Positions 2,192 to 55,870 of a stretch of 64,000 bases of DNA are shown one piece after another. The notes below the pieces were generated by a model. The model saw nothing but the letters and a program-made list of their open reading frames with translations. It did no database searches and was not told where the DNA came from. Both the position numbers and the translations under genes were made by a program. Origin of the DNA: Ceraceosorus guamensis (lineage: Eukaryota; Basidiomycota; Exobasidiomycetes; Ceraceosorales; Ceraceosoraceae); the NCBI RefSeq assembly GCF_003144195.1, contig NW_020290040.1, positions 41,049-105,048 of the forward strand. The letters are read 5' to 3'. How positions within the stretch are numbered: the stretch's first letter is position 1; every line of letters begins with the position of its first letter.

Positions 2192-3367
2192 TGTACAGAG
2201 AGATGAGGGCTTGAGTCGTATGGTTGAGACTTGGATTCGGACGCTGATTGTTCTGCGGACGCTTGGCTGTGTCGCTGTATGCTCCTTGCTTGCATACCAG
2301 CTAGATGTTGTGATAGTTTAAAGCCTGGCTGTGCTGCAAGCGTTTCTAGTGCGCGAGATCGTGTTATAGTGTGCGAGGCGACCTGCAACGGCCTCGAGGT
2401 GAACAGTCACGAATCACGATCGCGAGTGTGAGTCTTTTGAAGGTCCGAGGTAAGAAGGCCCGCGCTGGCGCGGCGGTGTCATCTACCGCCCTAGCGTATA
2501 GCTGCAACCATGCAGGTGGAGGGCGACGCTGTGCGCTTCTCTCTGCTGCAACAGCACAACAATAATTGTGCACCATCACGAATCACGCGTGGAGACGCAC
2601 GGATCACTATGCGTCACAGTCGCACAAACACGATTGCTGTGATTCGCGCTCTGACAGAGATGGCAACAGCGGCAGCACAGCGGCGCGCGCGCATCGAGGA
2701 CAATGTGGACACGCGCGGATCTTGATGAATGTGAATTTCGGTGCGAAATTCAATCTCTAAGGAACACTGATGGAGCGCTTGCTAGATCATCTCGCACTTC
2801 GACGTCAGCAGACGATTCACACAAGCACAGCGGGCGCAACAGGGGGCGGCAAGGCGCCTTTGCAGCCCAGCCCAGCATGTACGCCAGCTAGGACGACGGC
2901 GATTGTAATCTCGCTTGTCGAGTGAGACCACGGGAGAGACAGGTGGCGCCACGCAAATGCTCGTGCTCCCAATCTTGAACGCGTCCAGCTTGATACGTTC
3001 GATCTATTACCTTCGAATGCTGTCGGATCGGGTAGCCAGAGAAGTGCGGCAAGGGTCAGGGGAGTGAGGTCTTCAGTACATGTGATGCGAGATCGAGATT
3101 CTTATCGTCAAATGCAGAACGGAGAAAGGAAGAGGTGGGCGAGATCGTAGGGATGGTGGGCTAGTATGGCCGCACGACGAAGACCGAAAGACCAAACAAA
3201 GGGATGTGCGGGCCAGTTGAGCCAAGGAAGTGTCGAGTATTTGTTCGCTCTTCTTACATGCCGCAATTTCCTGGCCACCCAAAGCACATTCGCGCGAGAT
3301 TTGATGTCACCGCCGTTTCTAAGCTCTGCCGAAGCGGGGGAAGAGAGGGTTCGCCAAAGATCCTCGC
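2192..3367. other. Intergenic, upstream of GH2 gene
   Basis: No gene seen. It holds two pairs of the 7-bp words discussed below: CAGTCAC+GAATCAC at 2404-2417 and CCATCAC+GAATCAC at 2573-2586. A short CG-alternating patch lies near 2684-2696. It should contain the GH2 promoter and the transporter 3' UTR. Confidence 0.6.
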
Positions 3368-5035
3368 TTAGCCCTTGTGGGTCTTGAAGGCGACCAGACC
3401 GCCTAGCGCAATAGCATAGCCGAAAATTTGCAGTCCTGTGATGGTGCTTCCCAAGAAGAAGACGGATGCGAGGATGAGCATGATGTCCTTGACGACGCCA
3501 GCCAGGGTGAGGGTGAGACTGCTAGCCGCTCCGATAAGGAAGACGGCGGCAATGTTGAGAGCAAATGCAACACCTGCGTTGGTGACGAGGACAAAAGGTC
3601 CGAGCCTAGAAATGTCCAAAAAGGGTGCCAGACCTTCGGTAAAGATCAATAGAGCCGTGTTGATGGCTGCGCAGACTGGCGCAAAGTAGTAGAGAGAGAC
3701 TAGAGGATCCATCTTGAGACCTTGCAGCAGCACTTGGATCATGACCAATCGAGAACTCTCGAAAGCCACTGCAGCAACTTGATAGATGAAACCCTCCATC
3801 GCGAATTCGATCTCTCCGTATGAGGCGATGGCCACGCCGAACGAGATGGATCCGACAATTACGACCAGCATGCCGCTCAGCTGCTTGAGGCCAAAGGCGA
3901 ACGAGATGAGCAGCACTGCAACAGGTGTAAAGGCCTTTCGTTTGAGAACGAGGGCTCGGCGTCAGTGCAAGCCGATCTGGGCGAGGTGCTTAAGAGGGCG
4001 AGAAGAGCTCACCTTGAGCATCTGGATGAAGCTGACACTGAGGGTCAAGTAAGCCATGTTGCTGGTGACCAGACTAGCAGAAAAGAGGGCACCAATGGGC
4101 AGAATGTTCTTGTACCATCTGTCGCTCGTCATTTCCACGTTTGCCAATCCGTCCAGCAGATGTGTGAATCGCGCCAGGAGACGAGTTCCCACAGTCGCAA
4201 ACGCCATGTGGAAGGTAGTCAGGAAGACGGGGTAGGGAAAGTTGAGTCCTGCCTTGGTGTCCAAAACATACTACAGAGGAAAAGCGGTGATGCTGGAAGT
4301 CAGCCTGCAATTCTTGGCAGCATCGACTTTTCAAAGGGGCGCTACTCGGCATGGACCTGTAAACTTGCCAAACACTTCCGAGGAGCAGTTGCTCTTCAAG
4401 CATGCCCTAGCTTCACGCGAGGAGCTCGATACAAAGGCTGAGGGCGCCGCTCAGCATACGCCTCGCTCGCGGGGTCACCTAAGCGATTGCGGCGAGACAA
4501 GCTTAGGTCACCACAACTGGCTTGCAGGCCGGAACTGCAGCCAGCTCGAAACTGCCGATTCTAGGCCCCCTCAACTTATTTCTGCTTCCGCTTCTGTGAG
4601 TCTCTGATCCGCGTTACATCGAGCCGACCTATACTTGGAAACACCAAAACGGCTTCCGATACTCGTTGTAGCAGCAGCGGCACGACTGATACGCGGCAGC
4701 TCACCTTGTTGTACACTGCGGAAGATGGCGAAGCGAAGCTAAAATCGTCAGACGAGCGTGGCTTGCATTACCCTTCCTTCTGCCCTCGGTCTTGACTCAC
4801 CGATCACACTGCTAGACAGAGCGATCCACAGACCAATGATCGCAACCGGGTGAATCTTCTTTTCTTGTTTAGCAGCTCCTCCGGGTAAGATTCCTCCACT
4901 GGAAGGATTGGGAGGACCTGAAACGCCCATACCGCTCGCGCCCGGTGTTCCGACTGAAGGCCTCAAACCGCCGTGTCCGTTGATCGGATCGTGCTTCTCG
5001 TCCCCAAGGGGAAGGGTCATGTGTTCCTTCGACAT
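3368..5035 (-). CDS. Triose-phosphate/nucleotide-sugar transporter family (TPT/DUF250) membrane protein
   Basis: A 356-residue multi-span carrier of the drug/metabolite transporter superfamily, of the kind that exchanges sugar phosphates or nucleotide sugars across Golgi, ER or other organelle membranes. The substrate cannot be inferred. Exons are 4801-5035, 4705-4715 (11 nt), 4013-4270 and 3368-3934, and all phases agree. The tiny second exon rebuilds the family motif YNKYVLDTKAGLNFPYPVF at the first helix. About 75 polar, Gly/Pro-rich cytosolic residues precede the first helix. Hydrophobic segments continue through VAVLLISFAFGLKQLSGM to LQIFGYAIALGGLVAFK, and the protein ends KTHKG. Intron 2 (4271-4704, 434 nt) is unusually long here. 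Fungal relatives include Sly41-like and S. pombe TPT proteins. Confidence 0.88.
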
Positions 5036-6194
5036 GATGAGCGGCGCTAAGGGTCGACGCGCGATAGCTTGCAGTGGTGGATGATCAGCTCAGACAGGCA
5101 AGATGAAGACAAAGAAGAGAGGCGATGCTTGAATGGCTGCAGCGTGGGGTTAGTGGTGGTGGTGGTAATGGTGGTGACGATGACACGCGGGTGTGGATGC
5201 GTGTAAGTTCGATTTTGGTCCAGATATAGAGGGGCAGGAAGAAGGGTTTGTGAGTACACGACTACCACAGCAGAACCTCCATTCGCGACTCTTGACTAGC
5301 ATATATAGCACTAGCTGCTTGCCTGCCTTGCCCATGCAGGGAACCCATACTCGCGACTTTGACCGAGTTACAGCGCAGAGTAGGAATTTCCGGCAAAATT
5401 CACAGACCACACCTGCATGCATGCATCAGCCAGCATCCAGCAAAAGCAAGTATAGTAGTACAGGGTAGTCACAGAGTAGCTACCTACACACACAGCTCGC
5501 TTACCCTGTATATAGCTGCATGCTGCCGAGGTCAGACAGAGCAGGCCCCCTCGCGCGGCTCCAAAATCTTGAATCGTATCCGGGAGTTTTGGCTGCGCAG
5601 ATGCATGCCCGTGCGCGTGCGCTTGATTCAAGATTGTGCTGAATCGAGAATAGAAAGGCAGCATCAGCGGTAGGACTATGCTTAGGCTCGCATGCATGCA
5701 GCGCGTCGACCCGCCTGTATATAGCGCAGCAGAATTCGACACGCCCCATGCATGCATGCGCCATCAAGTTCGGGCACACTCGCGAGTCTCAACATTCGTG
5801 ATTCTCGCGCAATGAGAGTCTCAGCTGATTTGAAAATGGCTTGTTGAAACGCGTGTTCAGTAGTGCTAAAGCGGCAAAGCCATCAAGAATAATACGCAAT
5901 CAGGTGAATCTTGGGGGTCTAAGCCGCGTCGGTCAGAGAAAATGATTTGCAATTTCGCACGCATCTCGCGCGTACAAAAGTCCAGAAAGTGTTTCAAATT
6001 CAAGGTCTCAGCTCGGTGCTGATGGGCCAGCTGCTGCTGGAGACATGCTGCATGGCCGTCATAGGCCGCGCGCATTCACGATTGCCTCGGGAAAATACAC
6101 TTCGCTGCTTCCGAAAGTGTCCGCTGTTGCTGCTGTGCTCTTCCGACAAAGCGCGCGTGGTGTATGATTCGGAGACGCAAAAGAGGAAACGCAG

Positions 6195-6195
<1 letters not shown>

Positions 6196-6226
<31 letters not shown>
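6196..6226. repeat. TGCG tetranucleotide microsatellite
   Basis: About seven and a half head-to-tail TGCG units in otherwise unique intergenic DNA. Such repeats usually vary in length between strains. Confidence 0.9.
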
Positions 6227-7122
6227 ATCCTGCATCGCGTTCTGTCCACAAGAATGACGCTAATCGGTCAATCCGCCACAACCCTTTATTTATGATCACC
6301 TCGACCTTGACTCCTCGAATAGAAACACTCGCGACACAGCCTGCTGGGAGTCAGTGAGTGTGAGTGCGAGGAGCACAAGGGCGGAACAAGGGCAAAGGCC
6401 TTTGCTGAGTGGCCGCGACGAGAGGATACCTCTCAGAGTCAAAGTGAGCATAAAGCTCAAATGTCGAACGTCGAATCGTGAATGGATGGCATAGCAAAGA
6501 ACTTTCTCGACCTAGCTGAACGATAGCGAAATCGAAATGCAGCCAGCAGCATGATAGAAGGATTCATGATTCCTTTGATGATACAGCCATTCGACGACGG
6601 ATGTCCATACACACACATGTACCTTTAGCGATAAAGCGCATGCTGGTCGTGCATCAATTGAGCAATCAAGTCAGGGTCTGATTTGGTTTCGGACACGTGC
6701 CCTTCTTTACTGGTCTCATGGCCTGTGTGTACGCTGCGACTCAAGACTTGATATTCTTTCCTTCGGCGTTGTGACTTCGAGGGGGCACTCGTTCGCTCGC
6801 ATGCCCGTGCGCAGGCTCTCAATCTACATCGCAAGTCAAGAAAGATGATCGAGGCCAGACGGCATATGCGCTAGCTGGTGTCCTTTGTCGATTCACGATT
6901 CGCAACTTGCTGCAAGTCCGCGGCAGCCCCCGCCCAAAAGTGTCCGCGCGGGCGGGAACTTATCGCGCACCTCTTTCTCATCCAAGCGGTGCTTCACAAC
7001 GCAATCAATCAAGCGAATCCTTATCGTCGCTCAAGCCCGCGGCACTGACCGGAGACGGCCAAGTTGGAGCAGTGTCAGACCGATGATGCCCAGCACGCAG
7101 AAGGAGCAGTGAACAATCATGG

Positions 7123-7123
<1 letters not shown>

Positions 7124-7154
<31 letters not shown>
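7124..7154. repeat. Poly-C tract, 31 nt
   Basis: An uninterrupted internal run of 31 C, about 470 bp beyond the THOC1 stop codon. It lies in contiguous sequence, unlike the tracts at the window edge and at the gap, so long G/C homopolymers probably do exist in this genome. Confidence 0.9.
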
Positions 7155-7157
<3 letters not shown>

Positions 7158-7623
7158 TTTCACCACTTTCCCTCTCGCTTTCACAATCAGAAGCGAGAGT
7201 GACAGGGCTTGGACTCTGAGCTCGATTCGGCGCCAAGTCCAATCTACTATTCACGATTTGGCTTTCAGCAACCTGCGACGCTCACAACAGGCGCTGCTCA
7301 GCTGCACTCAAGGCCGTGTTGCACCTCTGTCCGCAGGGCGCAATTCTCTCTTATCGCTGCTTCGAATCCGCTCGTCTAAAGTGCTGCAACCATCGGCGAT
7401 GTCGTTCGTTCTGGGTTGAGTCATTTGGGAAGCGCGCCTGACAATCACGCTTGCCAGACCAAGACGACGCAGTCGGATGTCATGTCCGTACTTGTATCAA
7501 GATTTCAGATGGAAGGCGCAGTATCGCGATGGGATTTGTGGTAGGCCACGTTCAGCTTACTCGCACCAAATCATTCGCGCGAAGGCTCGAGTATACAGAA
7601 TGTCTGCTGTGCAAACGTCGCGC

Positions 7624-10600
7624 TCATCCCGTCGACATGTCTACATCTTCTCCTCCTTTCGAATCTTTCGTTAAGGCCTTTGACTCATCCTCTGCACCAG
7701 CAGCGCCAGTATCAGCTTGACCAGTCTCTGTCTGCCGCTCTCCTTTCTCCTTCGGCGACGCATCTTCATCGCCCTTCTGAGCTTGCGCCTGACTGTCCAC
7801 TTCGATCTCAGCTCCCTGTTTTCCATCCGCCTTCTTGTCGCCTTCATCCGCAGTTGCGGTTGTAGACGCTGGTGTCGCACTCTTCTCAGGCTCCGGCGAG
7901 CTTTTAGGAACTTGCGGAACGTAGACCGGAACGGGTTCATTGGTGTCTTGTGCCTCGTCCGCGGTGCTTTTCCCTACTTTCTGCTCATCGACCAGGCGCA
8001 TGAGCGTGGTAATGTCATCGACGCGTATAGTGGACGTTAGCAGGTCGAGGTGCTGTCTGCTTGCCAGTCGCAGAGCTTTCCAAGCCAATGTTCTCCTCTT
8101 GTCCTCGATGGAACTCAGCAACGCATCTTTGCCCTCTATAGCCACCCTTGCCGTTTCCTCTTTCGACAGCTTGTCCACCTTTCCCCTCTCCTCGGCATTC
8201 TTTGGCAGAAGCGCTGACGGATCAGGCAGATCTTGTGGCGCTTCTCCCCATCCTAGCTGTTTTCTCCTCTTACTAGCATTGGCTTCTTGAGCCCGGACAA
8301 GCTTGGCATAGCCTTGCAACGTAGGTATGCGCAGCGGCATTTCCAGGTCGCCGAGTCCGTCATCCTCAACTTGCTCGCCATCAATGTCGCGTGTGCTTGG
8401 CTTTGGAGGTTCTAGCCCTTCCTCCCACAGATGGCTAAGCGCAGCGGTCCCGATCGAATGAGGATAGCTTGAAAGAGACTTGAGGAGGGGTTGGGAAGCT
8501 TTGGCGTACTCGATGATCTTTTCTGTACTCAAGGGAGCCAAGTCGATGGGCGGACAATTGTCTGCCTTCCACAGTACCCATCGAGACTCTCGCTTGAGCG
8601 TCTGAAGTACCGAATCGGAAAAGGTCTTGCCTTCAGGTGGAATCGCTTTGAGCTGAGCGATGATTTCTCGCCAGCAGCTCCTGATCCACCCGTCCTATCA
8701 AGTTGGCAGAAACTTTGATCAGCGACTGCAGAGAGTGATGGACTTTCACTTAACAGTCTCCAGGCACTCACATCCGCATCATCCAGCACAAACGTGATGG
8801 TCTGCAGCTGTTTGTTCTTCCAATCTTTCCACTTTTCCCTTTGTGTAGGCGTGAAAGAGAGCAGATATTGAAAGAGAATGAGCCACTGAACCAGCACGTG
8901 TCTTCTGAAGTTGGGATCTTTCAGCTTCAAGAGGCCCGGCATCTAGGTCAGCAATCCGAGCATCAGCGACGCGAACAGACGAGTTGCCCACCCACTTCGT
9001 ATTCCAGCAAATTCCTGCCAGTAAGATACTTTGGAAAGAAGTTCTTGCGAGTCTCAGGCAATGCTGGTGGAATCCCATCTTCGTCTGTCTGCATGGCATC
9101 TCCATCCTGTTGCTCCTTAGCATTCTCGCTTCTCTGCAGGCCAAAGTCCGCTCCAGCTTCAATCCTCCCATCCTTCAAATTCGTTCCGCCTAAAGAGCGT
9201 TTCGCATTCTCTTCCTCTTCTTTTCTTCTCGCAGCGTTTCTTGCCGCCTCGCTCTCGCTTCCCTTCGCACCAGCAAGTATCTTTTCCCGCTTGGCAGCCG
9301 CAGCAAACACTTTGAGCGTCAATTTCGTCGCTATCCTCAAGCCGGACATGGGGCCTTTGGATCCGTCCGGTGCAGGATCTTCTGCACCTTCGGGTACCGG
9401 AAATTGGAGACGGCTATCGGCGTCGAAGAGCAAAGAAGGATTGCTGAAGATGCTTTGCAACGACCAAAAAGTCGAGTAAAATTCTGGTGACGAACAGATT
9501 GCGGAGAGACCTTCGGTCGTGTTGAGATCCATCGAGGCTATCGAGGCTATAGAGGACTCCGCTTTAATTGCACCTTGCGCTTCCTCCGCCTTTGCTTCTA
9601 CGCCATCATCTTCACCTTGCATATCTTCCTTCTCATCTTGAGCCTTTCCCTCCTTGATCTGCGCCGGTAAAGGCTCAATTAGCGTCTTGTTGTCCGTGTT
9701 GAAATCGCCGCGCAAGTTCACTCCGCTCCTCTCCCCTAGAGGAAATACAGCTGACAATGTGCTCAAGACTCTTCCAGCAAAGATGGTCTGCTCTCTCGAA
9801 GGCTTAGCAAGCCTTCTCAAGAGATCATTGCACAATCTAAGCAGTGTCAAGCCTTTGCCTTTGGAAGGTGACAATCCCACTGTCAATTGATCCAGACGCG
9901 ACTCCATGTATGAGAAGAGTAAGGAGCAGCTCTTGATGGGCAGCGCTTCAAATGCTTCTTCGAGGATTTGAAGAGGGAGGGAAGCGTCCACAAGGTCTTT
10001 TGGGGACCCCACCAAATCGCAAAGTATCAGCGTCGCCATCAAGCTTTTTAGGCCTGTAAGCCCGACAACGCCGTCTTGTGGTTGACTCACCCGCATCTAC
10101 AAAGGCAAGCACCACGTCCAGTCTATCCGAAAGAGCTCTGGCTGAATCTGACGAAAGCTCCACTGGCCCCTTCACAGAAGCCATCCAGCACGTCATGGAT
10201 GGCGCATCAGCATTCTACTCGTGATGCGCATAATGCGCATGTCCCTAGCGAGCTCCCTGCTCACCTGATCGCTGTGCACCACCCTTGATCTCTTTTTCGG
10301 TCTTTCCTGGTCCAGCTCTTGCTTTTGCAGAGTAGATTGATTGGCGGGCACCTGGTCTAGCACCTCTGTTCTCAGCAAAGCTCCCACGTTCTCTTTCAAG
10401 CTCAATCGCAACCTCTCTCCTCCACTGATTGCCGACGTCTTCTTTGCTTTGGTATCGGAGGCGGTCCCGGCATCTTCGACGACTTGCTCCTCAGGAGGTA
10501 GAATGCCTCGGATGCGCGTTGCTAGATCTGAGACGATCGGAGCGAGGAGTGACTTGGCAGTGCGAGAGCTCGGTATCGATGCTGGTGAGTTGCTGGAGCT

Positions 10601-10780: not shown

Positions 10781-11497
10781 GGTATGATGGCGACACCGAC
10801 CAAAGGTTTCCGAGCGTGCCAATGGTCGAAGCAGCGCAGCAGATCGGCGCTGCCAAAGCTTCTCAAAATCGACACCGTGCCGCCGTCCTAATTGAGCTCG
10901 CGGCGGTCAGTCTGGTAGGTGAGCACAGGAGGAAGAGGGGAGAGACGGTGGTAATGTTGACCTCCTCTTTGGCAGACGAAGGTGCTGCATGGCGGATTCC
11001 TGAATGACTTGACGCGAGGACGGATTCATAGTATCGAAGGTCACGTGACACGCCCACTCGCAAGACTCAAGACTAACAATCAAAATCATTCACGATTGAA
11101 TAATTCATCAGATTTCACTGAAGTCTTTTGAGTCTCATCAGGCCGCCGGGAGAAACGCTTCTTGTCGACATCAGCTCGCGGAAGGGTTCAGGCCGGAACT
11201 GACTGTCATCAGGCCGTCAGCAGCTCCTCCTCCGCACCAAGCTCTTACGAGTGATCTATAACTGCTACTGACAAATGCTGCTGAGTGACACGTCCAATGT
11301 CATGGATGTAGATAGATGCGCGAAGGCAATCGTCGTTGATACAAATACAACACACGACGTGGCTTGACTCAAGACTCGAATTGGACAGCTTGACAGCCAC
11401 CGAGATGAGTGCATATAGGCGACTAGAGAGGTAGGCGAACGAGGTGGTTTTGTGTGCGCAACGAGAAACTCGCCTACGCAAGCGCACTCAAGACTCC
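10781..11497. other. Intergenic: THOC1 promoter side and SNU23 3' side
   Basis: No gene seen. Contains the palindrome at 11040-11049 and a TTCACGATTGAATAATTC patch near 11089. Confidence 0.6.
11040..11049. promoter_or_regulatory. GTCACGTGAC palindrome (Cbf1/bHLH-type E-box)
   Basis: A perfect 10-bp palindrome with a CACGTG core, 260 bp upstream of the THOC1 start codon. The sequence equals the well-known Cbf1-type bHLH site. Function here is inferred only from sequence and from its recurrence at 12769 and 55610. Confidence 0.5.
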
Positions 11498-12381: not shown

Positions 12382-12647
12382 GACTAACAGCAAGCTCACG
12401 ACGCTATTCGCTTGTTGGATGGCCTCTAGCAGACGGACGCGCTCGAGTGGACTCAGAATGCGTGGGCGTGCTTGAATGCGCTCGTGGCAGAGTGTACTCC
12501 AGTTAGCCTGGTCTTGCGCCGCGAGGTTGAAGGGTGAAAAGGTTCTTGGGAAAGCCAAGCTACGATTGAGCAGATGGAATCTGATCGACTGAGAGGGCTG
12601 GCACTGACATTTGAGTGATCAGTGTACGGTGCGTGTGTGAGCAGTCA

Positions 12648-12668
12648 GAGTCTTGAGTCTTGAGTCTC
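12648..12668. repeat. Three tandem heptads GAGTCTT/GAGTCTT/GAGTCTC
   Basis: Exactly three head-to-tail 7-bp units, 267 bp upstream of the SNU23 start. This is one of the cleanest members of a dispersed intergenic heptad family described in the findings. Confidence 0.7.
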
Positions 12669-12768
12669 TTGATCGTCTTGGCCTTGAATTTCGACTCTTG
12701 TGTGGGGATGAGCCTGTTGTGTATGTGCAGTAAGAGGGTCGTGAGTCACGAGCGTAAGGCAAGTCCGT

Positions 12769-12778: not shown

Positions 12779-13057
12779 ATATATTCCTCAAAATAATTTT
12801 GGTATTGTGAATTTCTTGACTTGATTCGTGATTTTGACTGCAACTCGTCAATTGGAGACTCTTTCTGTGATTTAGGGATCGAAGCGACATACGAGCCATT
12901 CACCACCCACCGCTCGCCAACGGAGCCAAGGTTGGATGCCACTTGAGAACATTCCAGCGCAGCTTCTCACGTTTGGTCTTCGTTGCCTCCGACTTATCAT
13001 CACTCATCGTGGAAGTCTAAGTCTTTCACGAAGCCGAGAAGATCACTTGAAACGAGC

Positions 13058-21426: not shown

Positions 21427-23129
21427 GGCGTGCTGCGAATGCTGCGAAGCTGGTGGAGCGCAGATGAGCGCGAAGAATTCCTGCGACGTTCGAGTAGGGA
21501 TGCGTTGTTTGTTGCCTCTGTGTTGTTGCTGCTGCAAGATCGTCAAGTCGAGTAGAGAGCGGAAATGAACTTCGTTTCAGAGAAATGAGGTTGAGGAAGC
21601 CATGATGAAACGGCGTCGATGTTTGAGTGGGCTTCGATGTGCGCACTCTGACTGCTAGCTGCAGTCAGTCAGTCAGTGATGCGGAGAGAGGCTCTTTGGC
21701 CGGTGAGGCGGCAGAGTGTGAACAGGTTGTGTACTGCAGAAGGGCGAGAAGATCTCGTTCAGGGTGCTGCGATCTAACAACGCGGCAGATGAGAGTGTCG
21801 CGGTGATCAACCCTGCCAACCTGCAGCTGATGTTGAGCAAGGATGTGGAGCCCGGGGCGTCATAAGCTGGCAGATCATGTGAGCACGCGGCAGCGATTAG
21901 CTCGGAGTTACAACTGCCCTTTCGGCTCAACAATACCCTCAAAATTGTGACTTGCTGGATGATTCAAGGCGAGCACGACGGCAAGCAAGCAATCTTGAAT
22001 GCGAATACACTGTGACTCTTGAATGCAGCCTTTGTGCCGAAGAGCCCTGAATTCATTCCCGCATCTGCATGGCCGGCGGCCGATCGCAAATGCTGGGTGG
22101 TTTCATCCAATTAAGCAGCAGCCATGACCGTCGCAGCACAGGTACAGTAGCGCGATAGATGCTGAGACGCTAGCAACCCCCACAGGGTCATGCAATGGCA
22201 AATTTAATCACGAATCGATTGTGATAATTGCTGCATGGGTCGCTGAATTCGCATGCAGCAGCGCAGCGCCGCCACATCACCGCTGAAACCACATCAACAC
22301 GCCGGCGAATAGACGGCATGTCATATGATGCAGCGCGCGGATGCATCATCGATGCATCGATCGAGACGATGCGCGCGCAGTCAGCCCATTCGTGGTCTAA
22401 ACTCACGCCGCTTAAGCATCGAGAGGGACTTTGCGACTCGCAAGTCGTGCTTTCATGATGTCTCAAGAGTGGCAGTGTGGATGGGAATCAGCTGAGGACG
22501 CTGCTATGCTGAGTACATAGCCGCTTCCTCTCCCTCATTCACAGCTTTGGCGGAAAGCAAAGTTGGATGAACACGTGAGGTCGAGCCTGCATGCCCAAAT
22601 GGGAAAGGGCTTGCGCTCTCCACCACAACGCGATGCACGCTAAAAGATGACGTATCGCACTCCGCAGCCGGCGGGCGGACCGCTTTTGCTGGTGCTAGCG
22701 CACACTTGGTCGTGACTGGCCTTCTCAGTCTCCCTCATCCACAATTGAAGATTCTTAATTTCAACCCTCGTCACTCGTAAATTGTGCATGTACCTACAGG
22801 CGACGCTGGTGGAGAAGCGCGCAGTGGTATTCGTGATTGGACCGCAAGGACAAATGGAGCCTGGCTGCTTAAGCGAGAGTCGTGGGTACGTCGTTGGCGT
22901 TTCTGTAGGGTACTGCCTTACTGCTCAACAACCCTTTGAGGAGGCTGGGAGGTTACAGTAAGGCACACGGCACATGAACTCGCTGTGGCGTGTCTGCTGC
23001 ACGGAGCAAGATGCCGATTGCCAGCCAGCAAATTTCAAATTCATTCAGATCGGCAGCTGCGGACAGAGTAGCCTGGTCGCCGTGCGTTCATTAGCATCCG
23101 GGCGCTCTCTTCTGCTCACCAACGCCGTG
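21427..23129. other. Gene-poor intergenic region
   Basis: No supported gene. Contains TAATCAC+GAATCGA at 22205-22218, TATTCGTGATTGG near 22828, a CACGTG at 22572, and a GATGCATC-rich patch at 22340-22360. Upstream of the PH-protein 5' exon, so its promoter should be at the left end. Confidence 0.5.
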
Positions 23130-23711: not shown

Positions 23712-24349
23712 CGCTTCGGATCTAGGATAAGGACACTCCGATAGGTTCGGCTGCGTGACGTCCGAATGTTCCTGCTGCCGAACCACGATGGTCAATGTGC
23801 AATCACGAATAGTCTTGAGTCACGAGTAGCTCATTCTGCACTGGAGAGAGTGCTGGTAGACTGCGGCAACTCATCAGGAACAGGACATGATCCAAGAGGT
23901 GAAAGCAAATGAACACGGCGGGATCATACGATGTTTGTCTGCATCATCTGTGGCTTCGGATCCAAGCATGCGGATCTTGAATCAGGTGTGTGGAGGTGTG
24001 CGCGAACCTCGGTCCGATCTTCAATCCTTTCTTGATCCCCGTTGTCGTCGCACGCTAGTCGTACATCACACCTACACGACGACGAGAGCACTCAGAGTCA
24101 CAGTGCGATCACGCGTGGCCAACGGGGCTTTTCACAATGTATGCTTATACACAGCGCAGTCATTTTGATTCTTGTACCATCGTGAGTAGACGCCAAAATA
24201 GGATCAAAAGTCACATCGGGTACGTGAATCGAAGAGCAACACTGCCAGGCATGCTCGACGTGTGGGCAAATGTCCGGACGCGATTCACCACACGGAGGAG
24301 TACTTTGGTAGGCTCGAGAGAGCGGAGATTCTCCTCAGACTGCAGGTGA
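23712..24349. other. Intergenic
   Basis: No gene seen. Holds CAATCAC (23800) and GAGTCAC (23817) heptad words, the latter followed by another GAGT. Confidence 0.5.
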
Positions 24350-27873: not shown

Positions 27874-30800
27874 GGTGAAAAGCTGAGCAAGGGTGTACGA
27901 GGGTGACTGATAGGTGGTGGGCGTGTAACAATCAACAGTGCGCGATCTATTAGATACGGACAGCTAATTTCTGATCGCGGGCGGGGTTGTGGAAAGAAGA
28001 CGTGTGAAATAAAGTTGCTTGGCAGGGTAGATATATATATATATATATTCGGTCAGAGGTCTCCCGCAGTGGCAGGGCGACACCCCACCGGTTCAGCGAC
28101 AAGTCCACATTTCACATTTCACGTTCGATGAGGGCGCGCATGATGATGCTCGACGAGCCGAGCTGCCTGAGCGCTGCCTGGCTGCCAGACCGCACACATG
28201 TTGGGCGGGCGATCGGGAATGCCGGAACCCGCCGCCATGAGAGCTCTACGCCTTTGGCGAGATGATCCGAGCGCAGGGCAGTGCAGGGCAACGCGGGGAG
28301 CGGCGAACGAGAGGCGGGCGAACCCTCTGCTGCTTCACCCTGCTTGGCCCTTGGCCCCTGCGCGCTTGCTGCTTGGTGACTTTGTCGAGCACAAGCTCGG
28401 GCACAAGACAGGCAGCTTGCTCTCATCGCCACGCTAATCAAAAATACTTCGTCGAGTGTAATCATTCATTCACATTACGATTCGTGATTGTGGCGAAGCT
28501 CTGAAGACGCTGTGTCAGGTGAGCCTTTGAGCACCCAGATTGCCCCAGCTCGTCCGGACAGGCTGGTGAATGCTGGCGGGCGACGCGCGGACACCAGTCA
28601 ATTTTGAGTCACGAATGAGTATCATTTCGGCACGACCGGCTTTGGTTTCAGCCACGCGAGACATGTACGCCTCGAGCACATGAATCCACAATCGAAATCG
28701 ACTCTTGAATGGCAAAGCCACACGAGCTTGAACTGGAGAGCGCTGGAGGTTTGTCAAAAGGTTGCTTACATCTGAAATTCAATCCATGTCAGTAACCGCG
28801 CGAGGTCTCAGAATTGAAAGCCTTCTCAACAAAAGCTCGATCCGAAGAGGTCGTCGGGAGCTCGTTATGTGCCTCGGACGCTGTGGTATTTGTGCTTGAT
28901 CCCTCGGGCGGGCCGCGAGCACCGGGCAATGCGGGATGACGCAGGCGCTTCGACCAAGCAGCCGGGATCACACGTGGCTATGGCCACGTCCGCCTATCCC
29001 GTGATCGCGATAGATAAATCCAAGATTCGAGAATATTCTTGCTCTGCCGGGCGTGGTGCGCCAAGGTCTGCTGGGCGACAAGGATAAATCAAGAGGGGAG
29101 CTGCAGTCAAACTTCGGCAGAATGAATCCTCGCCCTTCATCATCCTTGCTTTGAGGCAACCAAAAGTGCGATCGATCAAGGTGGAAGCTGTGGGGAGGTC
29201 GTCCATCGACGTGCGACGGATGCGCTCGATCCTGAAGCGACGCCTCAGACGCAAGGGGTCAGGTGAAAACGCGCGCGGAGAAAGGCGCGCGCGCTTGGCC
29301 CCTTGCCAGGCGCGAGCGAAAGATTATTCAAAATCATTCAAAGTTTCATCGGGCGTGACTCGTGAGTTTGGCATTCAATATTCGATTTGAGTCGCAGTGC
29401 GAGCCTGACACCACCTCCTGGCAGATCCGCTTGACCTGCTGATGCTGTTATTCTTGATCATTGTTGTGGTGCACCAAGTGGGCCTCTTGACCTTTGAGCC
29501 TCGGCCCTCGAATTCGCTATGGCCGACCCCTGGTCTCACGTGCTTAGCCGCCAGCCGCCAGCCGTTGCGCAGCAATCGCGACATGCTCGAGAGGTCAACG
29601 GTGCGAGGGCAAGGCGTAACGCCAAGATCTGAGGGGTGCCCTGCCCACGCATACAGTCGTGGGTACATGTAGCTTGCTCACGCCTTACCTACCGAGCTCG
29701 AGCCCGAGATGTCTCGTCGGCCAAGTGACAAGCTTATTTATGAATAGAGAGACGCTCGTACACGCAAAGTCGACTTGCGGTCTCGGGCTGAGAAGGCGGC
29801 CGTGCGCCCGACGCTAAGCGGCCGGTGTTCCTTACACACGCGCGCACATGCCCCGGCTGTATAGCTGTGCTGCGCTACTGCATGCCTGCACAGCATGCAT
29901 GCACAAGGGATCTTGCCTCGCATGACCGTCTCGTTTGCGAGCTCCACGCCTCACTCACACTCACCACTCACGACTGCACGCGCACCGGTGTTTTAATCCC
30001 TAATGTCGGATGCAGTCAGAGTCGCGAGTGCAGGTGCAGGTACCTACGCACGTCGTAAACATCACGAGCCCAACACTCACAGTGACATCACCTTTCGATT
30101 ATCGCAAGGGGCTTTCATCCGACCTGCGTGTCATGTCAAAATACTCTGCTCTCGACGTCATACGAAGCCTATCTAATCATCCTGTCGCGCGCGATTGACA
30201 ACAAAGGGGAGCGGGTTGGCCCCCTTCCTGTAGCTAACCCCCTCCTCCTCCTTGGCGCCATGGCTCGATGCATGCACCCTCCTTTCTCCAACCGTTGGAA
30301 CCGATGTGCGGACAGGATTGCAAGGAACGCCGAATACTCTACCGGCCTCCGAGTCCAAAGTAGCGGACGAGCCTCAACGGTCGGCGTGCAGTTGTTTAGC
30401 GCGAGAAAACGTAGACACCCTGCTACGCTACCCAGAACAGGCTCTTAGGATTTGGATCCGCTGTGACAAAGTGGCTTCACGGGCCAGGTAGGCCATTGCC
30501 CCTTTCACACTCAGACTGTGTGTCTGGCACAGCTCTGACCATGTGCGCCCTCGCCTGTTCAATGACGTGCTGGCCGACCTCGACCGCCCAGCTTTGAGCT
30601 CCCCCGGCGAATTCTTTCTGTTACGGTTCAACTGTTCGGTCATGGCCCTCTCAAGGCGTACTGTAGAGACACAAGAGACTAACAGGCGCTTCGATCCCAG
30701 GCCGAGCAAGCTTCGATCTTGACTATCTGGCCCTAAATCCTCTTGCGGTCAAATCTGCGTAGGAACGGTCGGCACCCTTTCAACGGTCGAGCCGTTAGAC

Positions 30801-35858: not shown

Positions 35859-36953
35859 GCTGATCAGGAAGATTGCGGCGTGCTCTAGTCTGGTACTGCG
35901 CAGTGTCGACGAGGTACAGTCAAAGTCACGAACGTGGCGCGACGATGAGAAAGTTGAAAGGTAGAAGAAGCGTGTCCCCAGCTCCACATGCTAAGCTCTC
36001 ATCAGGAAGAAGTCGTCCACCACAACCTGCGCATGCATGCATGCATGCCCTGTATACTCATCAGCTCCAACCCACACTCGATAAGTAAGCGAGACTCGTG
36101 ACTTTAATCCCGCAACCGCTGCGTGATCAGAGAACATTCACGTGATACGCTTGCACCTCTGACCTCTCATGACGGCCGCGGGCGTCCTGCAACAGTCTAG
36201 CTTGAGTGACTAAAGAGTCAGGAATGAGATCATGAGTCTTGGATTTGAGTCTTGGATCACGAGTCTTGTGACAAAGTCACAAGTCACGGTTTTGTGTATG
36301 AGTCACAAGTGACAAGTCACGTGAGTGTACACCGCGGTACACCGCGGCCGGTAGCATCACCATCCGCAAGCACCAGCACCAGCGCACGGCCAGCAGCAAC
36401 AGCAGCAGCACGAAGCGGCCGCAGACACGCGCGCTCTGTAGCAACGGCCGGGATGCGCGCGCTGCTCTGGCATGTGCAGCAGGCGCCCACACCCACGCAC
36501 AAGCACCACAGCTACCACCATCACCACGAATACCTTCTCATCTATACAACGAAGCTTGCGAGGTCGCCTTTGCTATCAGCGACAAATCATCGCTTCGACT
36601 ACCACCTCGCTTACAACCATCGCACCCCGTGGCTTGCACGCCTACGCAGCTTCTCACCCGTACATTGCAAGCTGGTCGCATCCCTCGCTTGCAGACCAGG
36701 CGATTCACAACAAGCCTTTCGAGTGCAGGCGCCAGGTCCAGGCAGGATATCGCGTAGGCCCTCGCTTCTGCAGCCTCACCATCTCTAGCATACAGATTAA
36801 GCTAGGCACTCGACCACCCTTCTTCGAACGCACCTCTACCCTTTTCTCGACTGCGTTGCGCGTATCCAAAGCAGCTCCCACCTGCGCCTAGTTCCAGAAG
36901 ACGCAATTATTGCTGCAGCACTAGCACACACATCAAGCCCTTTCAACAAAGTC
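35859..36953. other. Bidirectional promoter region of the acetyltransferase and DHH1
   Basis: 1.1 kb between divergent starts. Contains GCATGCATGCATGCATGC at 36030-36048, TTCACGTGAT near 36136, the longest heptad array of the window (36234-36320) running into another CACGTG, a 10-bp tandem duplication (GTACACCGCG twice, 36327-36346), and a pyrimidine-rich DHH1 leader. Confidence 0.6.
36234..36320. repeat. Heptad array, GAGTCTT / GGATCAC / AAGTCAC / GAGTCAC units
   Basis: Seven-base units at 36234, 36247, 36254, 36261, 36274, 36281, 36300, 36307 and 36314, many directly abutting and in register. The array lies 376 bp upstream of the acetyltransferase start and about 630 bp upstream of DHH1. 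Confidence 0.65.
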
Positions 36954-41500: not shown

Positions 41501-42062
41501 AGTGGTCTGAGTGTATACACACGCCAAGCGCTTTTGCAGCCGTTCAGACTTGCACGCCTCCGAATCACGAATGAGACAGAGGAAAGGAGCTGCAGCGAGG
41601 CGTGCCACTCACTGTGACTGCCGCTTCTCATGGAAGGGAGAGTTCATCGTGACGCTAGTGGAGTATTCTCCGCAGAGCGTCACCAAGTGTCAGCGTGCCT
41701 TTCGTCATGCACCTTTTATGATCCTTGACGAAGGGTCACACTCGCTGTCGAGGTCTCGCTTTGGAAGCCCTTTGCTCCCGATCTTGCCTGCTTTGTGTAG
41801 TCGGCACATCCGCAGAAGATGAAAAGCGGCGAACCCGTCAAAGCAGAGATGCGGTGAAGCCCCTCACCCGGCTCGCCACTTTCTCTCCACCTTACCGTTC
41901 CCCCACACGGATCATTCACCCTCCCCCAAAATTTATACTGCAAGAGCGCACCAGCTGGACTGGCAAACACATCGTACCCTTCCGATCATCCAAACGGTCA
42001 AGCGAAGCGCTCGGTAGAGAGCAAGACAAGATCAGATCTGCTGGTGCACACGGAAGCTCAGG
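38505..42062. other. 3.6-kb gene-poor region containing an assembly gap
   Basis: No frame is convincing. Contents: pyrimidine-rich sequence at 39190-39480, a poly-G-flanked gap at 40090-40129, GTAGGTACTTGTACC-like short inverted words at 40355-40520, and GAATCAC+GAATGAG at 41562-41575. A small gene hidden by the gap cannot be excluded. Confidence 0.5.
40090..40129. other. Assembly gap (40 N) inside poly-G
   Basis: Forty N flanked directly by G runs on both sides (GGAGGGGGG before, eight or more G after). The gap is therefore most likely a long poly-G tract that could not be read. Confidence 0.95.
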
Positions 42063-48164: not shown

Positions 48165-48185
48165 GAATCACGAATCTTGAATCAC
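48165..48185. repeat. Three tandem heptads GAATCAC/GAATCTT/GAATCAC
   Basis: Perfect head-to-tail 7-bp units about 410 bp upstream of the NUP85 start, followed by a further AATCTTGAATG. It mixes the CAC and CTT variants in one array, which links the two word families. Confidence 0.7.
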
Positions 48186-48500
48186 AATCTTGAATGAAGT
48201 TCCCATCAGGCTCGCCGCGCTCATTAAGACTCGTGGCGCCTGATCTCTCGGAACACACAGCACTCGGTCCTCTGTCCTGCTACCGTATCGCTGGGGCCCA
48301 TCAGTGATCAGTATGCAGCAGACCCACAATCGTGAAAGCGCAAATGCGGCTTCAAACATGGCAGCAATAAAGGGCGAAGAGCAAGGAGAAATTGAAAGCC
48401 ATTGTGCTCATGGGTCTTCTGAGGGTGACGTACGAATCAGACGTATGTGGGCAGATATGGTAGGAGAAAAGCGGAGTGTGAAGATCGCGCCGCTAGACTT

Positions 48501-48515: not shown

Positions 48516-48713
48516 CGACTTTGTGAATCGTATGGCGTTCAGCATTTGAGTCCTATGCGCTGCGGGAATGTCGGAATCAAGACCTATTCATCGTCGTACG
48601 TGAACTTGAAGGACCTGTTGAGCAGCGAAGAAGCAATGCTTCTGCAGTCAGCGCAGCTATCAAAGCGAACGTCAAGCGCCGATCCAGCGGGCGCACGCGC
48701 ATACGGGTGCCAC

Positions 48714-50746
48714 TTACTTGCTTCCCATGTCGATCGCTTCTCCACCAGCTCTGTAATTGCCCCTCTTCATCTTGTTCTTTGCCTTTGTAAAAGCTTTACC
48801 CTTCGCAGGTGCAAAGTCTGCCGCCGCTTTAGCTCCATAGCCAGAAGTTCCGGCCTGCATGATGTTCGTAGAACGCATAGGTCGGGTCAGCAAACGTTTC
48901 TTGCGCGAATCGATACGAGGTGCCAAAGACCTCCGCCTACTCACAAGGGCTCTGTATGACATGTCCCTCATGCCGTCGTGCGCGTACTCGACAGCGTCGG
49001 CCTTGATGCGCGAAAAGGGAACACCCGTTTGACGCTTTACCTTGCCGGTAGAGGTGTCGACGGAGGGCGAAGCGCTCAAGGACGGGAGTGAAGCCGTGGC
49101 TGCGGTGCTTGTTGCTACTACTGGTGTGCTCGTCTTTGGTTCCACTGCCAAGATGGCGGCGGCAGGCTTTGCCACTGATGCTGAAGATGACGACGAAGAA
49201 GAGGAAGAAGAAGAGGAGGAAGCAGAAGATGATGAGGAGGAGGAAGATGAGGAAGAAGAAGACGAGGAGTCGGAATCGGAATCGGAATCGGAGTCTGAGC
49301 CCGACTCAGATTCGGAACTGGAACTGGAGCTGGAGCTGTCGGACGAATTGGATTCAGAGCTCGAGCTCGAGTCAGAGCTGGACGATGCCGAATCTGATTC
49401 CGAAGCCGAGTCCGCCTTTGCCTTCTTGGCATTCGCCTTTGCGCTTTCCAGCTTCTTCTCCAGTAAAGCCTTTGCGACGCTCTTCTTCTTCGCCACAGCC
49501 GGCTGTGTTGCAGTCTCTGCTGGTCCAGTCTTCTCATTGGTCCTCTCAGAAGCTTTGACCACCCTGACAGGTGTGACTGCTGCTGCTCTTGCCGCTGCCA
49601 CTGCAGGACTCACTCCTGGCTCTTGCTTGATCTTGACCAGTGCAGCGTTTGCTTGTGCCTCCTTCTCTTGCGCATCCGTATCGGAGTCGGATTCAGAGTC
49701 AGAGTCAGAATCAGAATCAGAGTCAGAATCCGAGTCTGATTCTGAAGTCAAACTCGAGCTGGAACTCGATTCTGATTCGGTATCCGAACTGCTGCTGCTG
49801 CTGCTGCTGCTGGTATCGCTGTCGCTGCCGCTTTCGCTTGCCTGCTTGCTTTCTGAAGCCTGCTTCTTTTCAGCGTCCGCTTTCGCTGGTGAAGAGATTC
49901 CCGGATCTGAGGCATCATCGCTGGTAATTGTGGGGCTTGTAGCAGTCGTCACAACTGGCTGAGCTGCTTTGCGACCTGCTGAGCTTGGCGTTGGTTGTGA
50001 GGAGTCTTCGGATGAGGATGAGGATGAGGACGAGGATGAAGAGGAGGAAGAGGAGGAAGAGGAGGAAGAGGAGGAGGCGGAGCTCGAGCTTGAGCTTGAA
50101 TTGGAGCTGGACGATGAGGATGAGTCGCTGCTGCTGGATGAATCGCTCTCGTCACTGCTATCACTATCACTGTCCCCGTCCTTGTCGTCCGACTTGGCGA
50201 CTTGGCGCGTGCCTTGCTCCACCTTCGACGCAACGGTGGGCTCTTGAGGCACAGCACCCACTTCCATGTCCATCTCCACCTCTTCCAGTCCACTCAACAC
50301 TTCCTGAACCATGTCTGCCGATTTTCTAGCCCTCTTCGTCGGTCTACCATCCGAGCCATTTGTGGATCCGGACCCTGACTTGGACTCTGTCGCGAGAGCG
50401 GCGGCAGAGCCTGGAAAATGCACTGACAGAAAACTGTGCACGTAGGAAAGTGCGATTTTGACTATGCGATGAGATTTCGAGGCAAAAGTAAGCGGAGCGA
50501 GCGAGGGCAAAGGGACGCGCAAGATGCGCAAGAAAGTGCCGGGGGGCGATCGAGATGTTAAGCAATTAGCGACTCACATCCGTTCGAAGAGCTCTCGGTG
50601 GTGGCCGGGGATGATGGGACGACGACGTCTGACTCTGCTTGGTCAGACACTGCTTTACGCTTGCCCTTGCCCGTGCCCGCGCCTGGCGCCGTCGTTGTTG
50701 GTGCATGACCGCCTCCCGGGGCTAAAGCGGCTGCTCTTTTGACCAT
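48714..50746 (-). CDS. SRP40: Nucleolar phosphoprotein SRP40/NOLC1 (Nopp140-like)
   Basis: Chaperone-like nucleolar protein linked to snoRNP biogenesis and RNA polymerase I. Three exons (50578-50746, 48945-50461, 48714-48854) give 608 residues. The N-terminal part includes KIALSYVHSFLSVHF, similar to the LisH-like start of Nopp140. The middle alternates long Ser/Asp/Glu tracts (pure Ser runs above 15, and SESDSD repeats) with basic Lys/Ala/Pro spacers: classic casein kinase 2 substrate architecture. The C-terminal SRP40 domain (532-608) shows PFSRIKADAVEYAHDGMRDMSYRAL, then AGTSGYGAKAAADFAPAKGKAF, and KKxKRGxYRGG-like KNKMKRGNYRAGG. The last exon junction lies inside this domain and fits in phase. 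Ser tract lengths may be unstable because many codons are repetitive. Confidence 0.92.
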
Positions 50747-51485
50747 TGCGTAGGAAGAAGGCGGGTGGCTGAAAAGCTTGTATATGTATACTGACGACAA
50801 TGCTCGATTATCGCTTGTTGGAGGGCGTGACCTTGGGCAGCTTACCAGAGCAATACTCACGACGTCAAAGATTCGATACGTCGACGTGCGCAAGGTTGTA
50901 GAGAGCGCCAAAGTATCAAGGCACGCCCGCTTCCCATGTTTAATCGTGAATCGTGCATCATCACGAAAGGAAAAACCAAAAATCAAGAATTCAAGAAGAG
51001 CCGCGAGCCGCTTGCAGGCAATCAAAATACACGTGATTCTTGCACGAAAGATTAATCTCGTCACGTGTTTGTGCACATCACCTCGTGTGGGACCCAAGGC
51101 CAGCGCTGCTGCCGCCCGGTATGCTCGGACTCGTGACTCACGACTGGATGCTCTTTGAAATTTCTGATGAAATTTCGAGCCTGTGTAGAGCCAGCAGCAG
51201 TGAGGCCAGCGGCGGTGCACCTCCACGCCGTCGCCCATGGCACATGACCCCAGCCACAGGACTGACGACTAGCAGGGACACACACACACTCATCAGACTC
51301 ACACAAGTCTTGACTCATGACTCCAGAAGCCTTGCTGTTCGTCATCACACACATTCCACACGCGTCCAAGTCAGCTCCCGCAATCCGCTTCGCTACCACT
51401 ACGAAAGTCTCTCCTGCAACACCTTTGAGACCCCGCCCTCGTACCCGCCTCATACCCGCGCCACAATTTAATCTCACGCCACGCC
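50747..51485. other. Bidirectional promoter region of SRP40 and the ankyrin gene
   Basis: 740 bp between divergent starts. Contains AATCGTGAATCGTG at 50943, ACACGTGATT at 51029, GTCACGTGTT at 51060 and CTCGTGACTCACGAC at 51130. No gene seen. Confidence 0.6.
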
Positions 51486-52404
51486 ATGCCAGTCGCAGTC
51501 TCGCCCGCCGCTGCGCAGTCTTCCAATATCTGGATCGCAGCTGGAGAGGGGGATGATGAGAGGGTCACATACCTGATCGAAGTAGAGGGTGAGCTCGGAT
51601 CGACGACTGCGGGTGATCCTCATGCTGCGGTGTAGCGTGTGAAGGAGGTGCTCAATCCCCCTCTCGACTCCCTCTGCCGCCCCTCTGTCAGATATTTCTC
51701 CTACCGCACCCGACAGCAACACCTACACTCCGCTGCACGCAGCCGCATCCTACTCGCACAGCAGCACGCTCCAACTCCTCCTCGCTCATTCCAAAACTCC
51801 ATCAAACGCCGTCAACATTCAAGATTCGGATGGAGACACACCGTTGTTCGTGGTCGAAGAAGTTGCCATAGCAGAACTACTCATCAAGCATGGAGGCGAT
51901 GCTTTCCACAAAAACAAGGCGGGAGATACGCCGGCTGAAGTAGCAGAGGAGAATGGGTTTGAAGAGGTGGCGGAGTATTTGAGAAGTATAACGGGAGAGA
52001 AGAGACTTTATGAGAGACCTGGAGATGGGCCAGAGGATGAGGAAGAGAGTGAATTGACTTCGAGGTTGGAGGACGAGGAGGGAGCCAGCTTGACTCCGGC
52101 TGCTAGAGACCTCATCGACCAGAGGACGGAAGCGCTGATGAGTCAGGTAGAGTCCCTCTTATCTCGCGCTTCTTTGCGATCCGAAAGTGCCGACAGGGGA
52201 GAGTCTGGGGCAGAGTTGAAATTGACAAACGAAGAGGAGGAAGAGCTTAGGAGGTTGGTGGGCGAATCCGTCTTGGAGCAGATTAGAGAAGGTTGGGCGG
52301 GGAATGAAGGCCCCGGCCAGCAAGGAGAGGTGCAGGGTGAGAATGACAGCCGTCAAGTCAACGAGGAAACAAGGCCAGCTGGAAAGGAGCCTGAGCCAAG
52401 ATGA
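51486..52404 (+). CDS. Ankyrin-repeat protein with acidic C-terminus
   Basis: A small ankyrin protein of a widespread fungal family; the layout recalls YAR1, the chaperone of ribosomal protein uS3, but that identity is not proven. Two exons (51486-51588, 51692-52404) join in phase 1 to 271 residues. Three or so repeats are visible: NIWIAAGEGDDERVTYLIE, NTYTPLHAAASYSHSSTLQLLLAH, and VNIQDSDGDTPLFVVEEVAIAELLIKHGGD, then NKAGDTPAEVAEENGFEEVAEYL. The second half is acidic and probably disordered, with a helix EEEEELRRLVGESVLEQIREGW. The start at 51486 is the first ATG before the repeat and follows SRP40 on the opposite strand; if YAR1-like, both neighbours would act in ribosome assembly. Confidence 0.85.
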
Positions 52405-52806
52405 GGCAGGCATACAGGCCATCAAAAGATCAACGCGCAGCAAAATATAGAAATCTAATGCAGACCCTGCGTGTCGGTTGAGACGTCAAATATGCAAGCG
52501 CGTGCTCGAATACATTATGAGGAATTTGAAGCATTGCGGCTCTCGTCAGAAGCACACCGTGGCATCACTCCTGAAGATAGGCGGTGAAGGTAGGATCCGC
52601 AGGCTGATCATCTCGTATGACAAGAGCCGACTGGCTCGCGACACTACGCTCGATCTGCTACACTACGCTTCTCGCGATTGCTTGCTCCAGACCACGTCCC
52701 TGTCAGGATCGTAGCGAACGACGACCCCGCTCTGCATCGCGTGTCCTGCTCGCTGTCACGCTTTGACCAGCTTCACTGAATCTGTGTTATCGACGACGTA
52801 TGTGAC
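52405..52806. other. Intergenic between convergent genes
   Basis: About 400 bp of 3' flanks between the ankyrin and BCS1-like stop codons. No gene or repeat seen. Confidence 0.5.
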
Positions 52807-54921: not shown

Positions 54922-55510
54922 CTTGGCGAGCTCGAGAAGTTCCGGAATCTGTGGCTCAGGCCCAGCAAGCGCGGGCTTCAAAAAAATTCGGTGGCGAGAA
55001 TTGATGTCGAAGGAGCCTCTGATTGGTCTCTTGCTCTGACCGCGTGTACGTTCGACTCGCGCCAGTTATCGGGTCCCAACCCCGATCTTCCGCTCTCCAA
55101 TATAAGCTTCGGCTCTGCTCTGCCGTCACGAATGGCCTCAAGGATGATTCTTGATGCCTCGACGATTGCACCTGCTGCCACTCTACCACGAATAGCGTGC
55201 GATTGCACTCAAATTTGTCGATCTCCTGAAAATGCGGCGTCCTTCATGTGTATGCGTTGATGCGCTTTCTTGAAGATCCGGCCGAGTTGTCTCTTGCACA
55301 ACTGCTCGTGTCACTAGCGAGTCATGCCACAACTGTATTCGGGGCTGTGCAGTTGTGAATGGATTCATATGGTCTTGACCAGGCGTCTTCGAGACCTCGA
55401 TGAGTCATCAAATGTCGTGGGTCATACAGTCAAAATTGCACACACGGCGTACGGCGATCAGTTAGAAGTCAAGAGTCATTTCCGTGTCCGAGTCAACAGT
55501 CAAGAGTGGT

Positions 55511-55531
55511 GAGTCACGAGTCACAAGTCAC
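55511..55531. repeat. Three tandem heptads GAGTCAC/GAGTCAC/AAGTCAC
   Basis: Perfect 7-bp register; a further pair of GAGTCAC units is at 55664-55677. Both lie between the divergent BCS1-like and VAS1 genes. Confidence 0.7.
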
Positions 55532-55609
55532 ATATGATAGTCTTGAGTCGTCAAGTCACGCGTCAAGAGTCTCGAGTCAAAAAGTGTTCGCACGAGTGCT
55601 TCGCGCGCA

Positions 55610-55619
55610 GTCACGTGAC
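55610..55619. promoter_or_regulatory. GTCACGTGAC palindrome
   Basis: Third copy of the 10-bp palindrome, 252 bp before the first VAS1 ATG and 690 bp upstream of the BCS1-like start. Confidence 0.5.
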
Positions 55620-55870
55620 CCTGACGTTCCTGGGCATAAAATTTGATGGCCGTGCGCCGACCGGAGTCACGAGTCACGGAGGGTGACTCAGACTTGCGAG
55701 GAAAGGTTGCCTTGCTGCTTGCGCTCTCCACCGTCTTTGGTCCCTCACATCGACCTTCGCGCTGTCCTCCACTCCACCAGCAATTGAGCGTCATCGCTGC
55801 TTTGTAATTTCGGACATCTCTTACCTACACGTGATCAATAGTCTGCCCAGACATTTTGCTAGTCAAGTGT

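Follow-up and report, generated by a model that had tools for sequence, protein, structure and literature searches.

In Tc1/mariner-type transposons such as Sleeping Beauty, Mos1 and impala, an excision footprint is a duplicated target around a few bases left from the element ends, with mismatch resolution giving CAG or CTG, and the overhang-overlap logic by which footprints form is that of Sleeping Beauty and Mos1. Among fungal elements, EnSpm transposons of the rust Puccinia end in CAC..GTG and duplicate 3 bp of target, and the CMCT clade has CA..TG ends in most cases and target duplications of 2–5 bp, according to one study (PMC12730594). Here we describe short elements of the form ANT-filler-ANT, with the same middle base in both triplets, in a 64,000-nucleotide stretch of the genome of the basidiomycete Ceraceosorus guamensis (contig NW_020290040.1, positions 41,049 to 105,048; hereafter the window) and in further DNA of that genome. 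With a probability that we put at roughly 0.55, their sequence points to insertion and excision scars of a transposon with an ANT target duplication and CAM...KTG ends (M is A or C; K is G or T).

Such scars would resemble Tc1/mariner footprints in having a target duplication around a few end bases and in occurring in two forms through mismatch resolution. They differ in that the duplicated triplet is ANT rather than TA, in that the main filler is 4 nt long, and in that the genome gave no match to the transposases PF03184 or PF13358, for which the positive control matched with PF13358 alone. The CA..TG ends and 3-bp duplications of fungal EnSpm/CACTA (CMCT) elements agree with the scars, as far as the excerpted source describes them (PMC12730594), but no intact element was found in the window and loci L001–L032, and PF02992 and PF18759 were unmatched in the genome and in the control genomes alike. 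Because neither element nor transposase was found, and only one of the four family searches had a matching control, the proposed scars are not filed under the CMCT clade. HIP1 of cyanobacteria is another very abundant, short, palindrome-like genomic word; the elements here share that abundance, but are concentrated upstream of genes and carry a matched internal duplication.

The genome containing the window comprises 23.83 Mb in 199 contigs. The original prediction had described 7-bp words of about the form GARTCWY, recurring head to tail in intergenic DNA, and a check of the sequence found the words where it had placed them. Counts over the whole genome confirm that the recurrence is real and far above chance: GARTCACGARTCAC has 108 + 101 copies against 0 for the reversed-pattern control, GANTC-NN-GANTC has 3629 against 202, GANTC pairs with a 3-bp linker have 572 against 175, and four GANTC units in 7-bp register occur in 172 windows of sequence against 1. 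Both N are purines or both pyrimidines in 3168 of the 3629 GANTC-NN-GANTC pairs, and on contig C1 they are the identical base in 81 of 97 pairs. The main sample was 264 kb, consisting of the window and 20 tiles (L009–L028) from contigs C1 and C2; 102,368 bp of it was left as non-coding after a coarse coding mask, which takes in more than open reading frame (ORF) sequence. In this sample GANTC pairs 7 bp apart number 29 against 3.6 in shuffles for non-coding DNA and 5 against 4.5 for coding DNA.

The unit, however, is not the heptad, which half-site, equal-N and periodicity counts led us to reject, but a 10-bp (or 9-bp) ANT-filler-ANT element with matched N. The half-sites ANTC and GANT at a spacing of 2 occur 192 times against 34.8 expected in non-coding DNA and 42 times against 26.8 in the coding mask; no other spacing has a similar excess in non-coding DNA, the next largest being 57 against 28.7. 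The linkers at this spacing are AC, GT, AA and TT, with GC and TC weaker. The same base stands at both N in 131 of 158 sites with linkers AA, AC, GC, GT or TT (114 of the 139 isolated sites) and in 14 of the 34 with remaining linkers. Copies of the 10-bp element with equal middle bases (same-N) number 131 against 4.5 expected, while its 18 one-base neighbours at fixed positions have 2–14 copies against 0.9–5.6, the ratio being greatest where the C or the G is changed. Strong excess around the main 4-nt fillers is confined to the triplets ACT/AGT (66 against 2.1) and AAT/ATT (65 against 2.4), followed by CGC (12 against 3.8) and CCG (8 against 1.6).

The decisive count no longer required the C and G and took all ANT pairs at gaps of 0–20 in the non-coding sample. 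Same-N pairs occur 260 times at gap 4 (62.5 expected) and 172 times at gap 3 (60.6 expected), whereas different-N pairs occur 225 and 200 times (191.0 and 187.7 expected). At gap 4 the same-N fillers are CACG (35), CGTG (32), CTTG (30) and CAAG (28), with 0.6–1.7 expected for each, and then GGTG (8), CAAA (7), CGCG (6), TTTG (5) and CATG (3); at gap 3 they are CAC (21), CAG (20), GTG (18), CAA (15), CTG (13) and TTG (10). The ten main fillers (CACG, CGTG, CAAG, CTTG; CAC, GTG, CAA, TTG, CAG, CTG), our strict set, are present in both orientations and can be written as at most three bases of CAM followed by at most three of KTG, as can a few longer forms such as CAGTG and CACGTG. CAMG and CKTG are roughly equal in frequency relative to the triplet. 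The CAC and CTT variants that had been tied into one family do belong together: a single triplet is repeated on either side of fillers that differ. Smaller same-N excesses stand at gaps 0, 1, 10 and 11, and some further gaps show a still slighter one; 9, 10 and 11 are the lengths to which two fillers and one triplet would add up. For longer CA..TG inserts the same-N to different-N ratio is 2.1–7.5 up to 25 bp, in part because of chains, 1.1–1.5 at 26–100 bp and about 1 beyond.

The same-N excess holds separately in the window, the C1 tiles and the C2 tiles, and is weaker without the coding mask. It also holds in 24,886 bp of contig starts (L033, L034, L037–L040) that had no role in pattern discovery. 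Counting overlapping units within arrays, four-nt same-N elements number 27 in this hold-out (0.52 simulated) and three-nt ones 24 (1.60 simulated); the different-N counts are 3 (1.68 simulated) and 8 (4.46 simulated). Leaving out L034 and L038, with their dense clusters, the same-N counts are 11 and 8 against different-N counts of 2 and 4.

A direct duplication around a filler, as an excision footprint would have, is what these counts reveal, and the duplication is 3 bp long with near-random flanks. The run of identity at lag 7 is 3–5 bases in 103 of the 125 four-nt elements and at least 7 in just 15, so that the repeat unit of 7 bp, with the whole heptad in two or more copies, fits only these 15. 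The bases on either side resemble those around ANT triplets in general (5143 in all), with p > 0.05 at six of eight distances and 0.037 and 0.002 at the others. With CGCG counted in, 196 loci include 26 chains of 2–4 fillers, 23 of them with unlike fillers, where 20 simulations averaged 0 chains. Restricting the count to the ten main fillers leaves 192 loci with 222 fillers, and 6 of 30 neighbouring filler pairs match (permutation mean 4.2, P = 0.23). The arrays arise where fillers succeed one another at one triplet, the triplet staying constant and neighbouring fillers being independent. The suggestion that they are a simple-sequence by-product is a poor fit for most elements, since neighbouring fillers resemble each other no more than chance would have it.

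In the hold-out, chains reach five to seven fillers at single spots; at 8507–8543 of L038, for instance, CACG, CAAG, CTTG, CAAG and CTG lie between ACT copies. The densest cluster, at 8114–8560 of the same locus, has 21 strict elements in about 440 bp, counting overlapping units, and holds five CAAG units as well as the five-filler chain; it lies upstream of an open frame (8689–9732) that has no Pfam match. At 1727–1772 of L034, ACT(CAC-ACT)x6 followed by CGTG-ACT forms a hexanucleotide counterpart of the heptad arrays.

With respect to genes, the elements lie mainly upstream. The gene models are crude, single-exon calls that give 56 ORFs in 264 kb and certainly miss many genes. On these models, 45 four-nt elements fall in 20,538 bp that are upstream only (within 1000 bp), 2 in 12,080 bp that are downstream only (within 500 bp) and 1 in 72,369 bp of ORF. 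The corresponding figures for the three-nt class are 28, 6 and 5, a distribution less sharply upstream than that of the four-nt class; different-N controls number 4 upstream and 1 downstream for the four-nt form and 11 and 3 for the three-nt form. Between convergent genes (8 regions) there are 0 sites in 7,061 non-coding bp, between divergent genes (6 regions) 24 in 10,925 bp, and in tandem regions (22) 46 in 31,049 bp. The claim that the arrays lie mostly outside exons and upstream of genes therefore stands, within the limits of the models. The distance of 200–600 bp given with it does not, with 12 elements in 8,921 non-coding bp at that distance against 57 in 22,244 bp at 600–1500 bp. Scaled from about 180 excess non-coding loci in 264 kb to 23.8 Mb, the genome would hold roughly 16,000 elements.

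From the matched duplication, the filler set, the chains, the upstream bias and the scarcity in ORFs, we infer an excised mobile element, its end sequences and its overhang chemistry. An enzyme of the DDE-transposase kind would insert a DNA element at an ANT triplet and duplicate the triplet, favouring DNA upstream of genes; this promoter preference is an added assumption of insertion bias. Excision would leave at most three bases of each element end, 5'-CAM ... KTG-3'. Joining of the two 3-nt overhangs with a 2-base overlap, and resolution of the mismatches to CAMG or CKTG, would give CACG, CAAG, CGTG and CTTG, while joining with full overlap would give CAM, KTG, CAG or CTG, for a net gain of 7 or 6 bp per event. 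Repeated events at one site would build chains of the form ANT-f-ANT-f-ANT, one triplet with varied fillers, which read as 7-bp GANTCNN arrays. A single route, in which an element enters at ANT, duplicates 3 bp and is then excised imprecisely, would account at once for a symmetric skeleton with matched N, for fillers in both orientations and for chains, and the 7-bp gain, by shifting the reading frame, would explain the scarcity in ORFs.

Several observations weigh against excision footprints. None of PF03184, PF13358, PF02992 and PF18759 matched the genome (a search in which the positive control matched only for PF13358), and no inverted-end element stood out in the window and L001–L032, where the best candidate has 12 of 16 bases, a figure without a null. 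In the sampled DNA no repeat or paralogous pair was found other than mutually overlapping loci. With N left free, 12 of 44 two-filler places lack one N throughout, and secondary insertions number 30 against a random expectation of about 10, three times as many. The five- to seven-filler chains would require hot spots or local re-insertion. A mild same-N excess is present for every outer pair (1.13–2.17, with TnA reaching 2.48 at gap 4), although ANT tops all outer pairs at both gaps (2.58 and 3.47), and same-N pairs are in excess at several gaps besides 3 and 4. Fillers outside the model exist (GGTG/CACC 11, CAAA/TTTG 12), and within the coding mask the excess is weaker but present, at 25 loci against 8.7 simulated. 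The upstream bias is equally expected of a binding site.

A transcription-factor site of the form ARTC-NN-GART, in homotypic clusters upstream and perhaps bound by two paralogues for AATC..GAAT and AGTC..GAGT, is an unlikely alternative in our judgement. It would suit the sharpness of the 10-bp element, whose same-N copies far outnumber any one-base neighbour (at most 14 copies), and the clustering upstream, with nothing between convergent genes and a single four-nt element in ORFs. Yet a binding profile would not make positions 2 and 9 agree whichever of the four bases is present, the second class with its 3-nt gap has the same N matching, chain units overlap by exactly the duplicated triplet, and CAMG and CKTG are about equally frequent. 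The Gcn4/AP-1 site is TGASTCA, and the elements share GAGTCA with it. The bZIP binding that had been proposed on this ground is not supported: TGASTCA has 51 copies where order-3 simulations give 33.6, but only 16 of these disappear when the elements are masked, and the remaining 35 compare with 32.5 simulated. Those 35 exceed an order-2 expectation of 22.8 computed before masking; the 16 lost compare with 192 element loci in the same DNA. The Ros1 regulator binds a 14-bp Wor1-type motif, and in the part of that source available no link to the elements was found (PMC4917244).

We give still less credence to break and repair without a transposon, in which a nuclease, possibly a domesticated enzyme, cuts at ANT, the 3-nt overhangs are filled in and a CAM-type piece is added. 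Its duplication and filler data are identical to those for footprints, and both the long chains at single sites and the lack of a match for four transposase families (again with a matching control only for PF13358) would suit it; the main fillers, however, come from a short, fixed repertoire and carry CA or TG at one end, like the ends of transposons and unlike untemplated additions. Slippage of ordinary 6- and 7-bp microsatellites, combined with point mutation, is improbable: some of the arrays listed are long and uniform (L005, L034, L038), but most four-nt elements have only 3–5 bases of 7-bp identity, CAAG to CTTG needs two changes by way of the rare CATG, and pure slippage fails because adjacent fillers are independent. 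One uniform linker in 14 of 32 four-unit arrays, read by eye among the matches listed, does suggest slippage and adds to the points against footprints alone; slippage probably adds copies later in some long uniform arrays. Templated mutation at quasi-palindromes was also rejected, as it would give complementary N where equal bases are the rule.

The interpretation given in the original prediction is, as a whole, partly supported. Within the window, all eight of its single or reversed copies lie within a few bases of an exact element, as do four of its seven clear arrays (those at 12648, 48165, 55511 and 55664). The arrays at 2404–2417 (AGT-CACG-AAT, with differing middle bases) and 2573–2586 (CAT-CACG-AAT) are imperfect elements, and the longest, 36234–36320, repeats AGT around CACA, GACA and longer fillers that fall outside the strict set, and may hold decayed or other-length scars. 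The strict elements, given here without strand assignment, begin with ACT-CTTG-ACT (5288–5297), AAT-CTTG-AAT (5565–5574), ATT-CAAG-ATT (5626–5635), ATT-CGTG-ATT (5794–5803), ATT-CACG-ATT (6074–6083, 6891–6900, 7249–7258 and 11088–11097), AAT-CGTG-AAT (6474–6483) and ACT-CAAG-ACT (6739–6748, 11065–11074, 11367–11376 and 11486–11495); ACT-CGCG-ACT, with a rarer filler, is in the site list at 5349–5358. The chain AGT-CAG-AGT-CTTG-AGT-CTTG-AGT follows at 12643–12665, then ATT-CGTG-ATT (12824–12833, 22829–22838 and 28480–28489), AAT-CTTG-AAT (21991–22000), AAT-CACG-AAT (22206–22215, 23801–23810 and 41563–41572), the chain AGT-CTTG-AGT-CACG-AGT (23811–23827), ACT-CACG-ACT (29966–29975) and ACT-CGTG-ACT (36094–36103). 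At 48166–48195, AAT-CACG-AAT-CTTG-AAT-CAC-AAT-CTTG-AAT combines four fillers of three kinds with one triplet. Further on lie AAT-CGTG-AAT (50942–50951), AAT-CAAG-AAT (50981–50990 and 62255–62264), the chain ACT-CGTG-ACT-CACG-ACT (51129–51145), ATT-CAAG-ATT (51817–51826), AGT-CAAG-AGT (55467–55476 and 55498–55507), AGT-CACG-AGT (55512–55521 and 55665–55674), AGT-CTTG-AGT (55539–55548), ACT-CTTG-ACT (61803–61812 and 61834–61843), AGT-CGTG-AGT (61925–61934), the chain ATT-CTTG-ATT-CAA-ATT (62032–62047) and AAT-CACG-AAT (62434–62443).

Pfam matches were to Thoc1, Nup85 and SRP40, in keeping with a fungal source. An SRP40-like ORF (48714–50312) contains hexanucleotide repeats of GAGTCA and GAAGAG types at 49183–49777, and the three-nt elements at 49697, 49709 and 49769 are probably coding repeats and not scars. 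Two homopolymer tracts, 45 C opening the window (1–45) and 31 C at 7124–7154, are perhaps assembly artefacts. The word TGCATGC is over-represented in the non-coding DNA of the window and tiles L009–L028, with 115 copies against 38.7, and 113 against 40.2 after element masking.

Excision footprints are a known kind of scar. In the open-access literature, covered through titles and the starts of abstracts (most subscription papers lie outside it), no description of these elements was found, nor of promoters rich in one matched-duplication scar with no visible element. One of five 10-mers matched two papers on Ustilago maydis, which by itself is no evidence: in one it belongs to a primer used to clone the downstream flank of pep4 (PMC7358432), and in the other the passages retrieved did not contain it (PMC2219887). 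It is a possible, tentative extension that a host or domesticated enzyme, or a so far undescribed mobile element, repeatedly writes 6–7-bp insertions (ANT duplication plus CAMG, CAM or CAG) into promoters, which would make much of the promoter sequence of this fungus a layered insertion record and a source of standing variation. If excision footprints are the true explanation, one mechanism would account for a conspicuous family of promoter words in this genome, and motif finders would be warned that mutational scarring may lie behind a very common "promoter motif". The genome would hold thousands of insertion records without any copy of the element having yet been seen, and promoter evolution in these fungi would become directly testable through the presence or absence of 7 bp.

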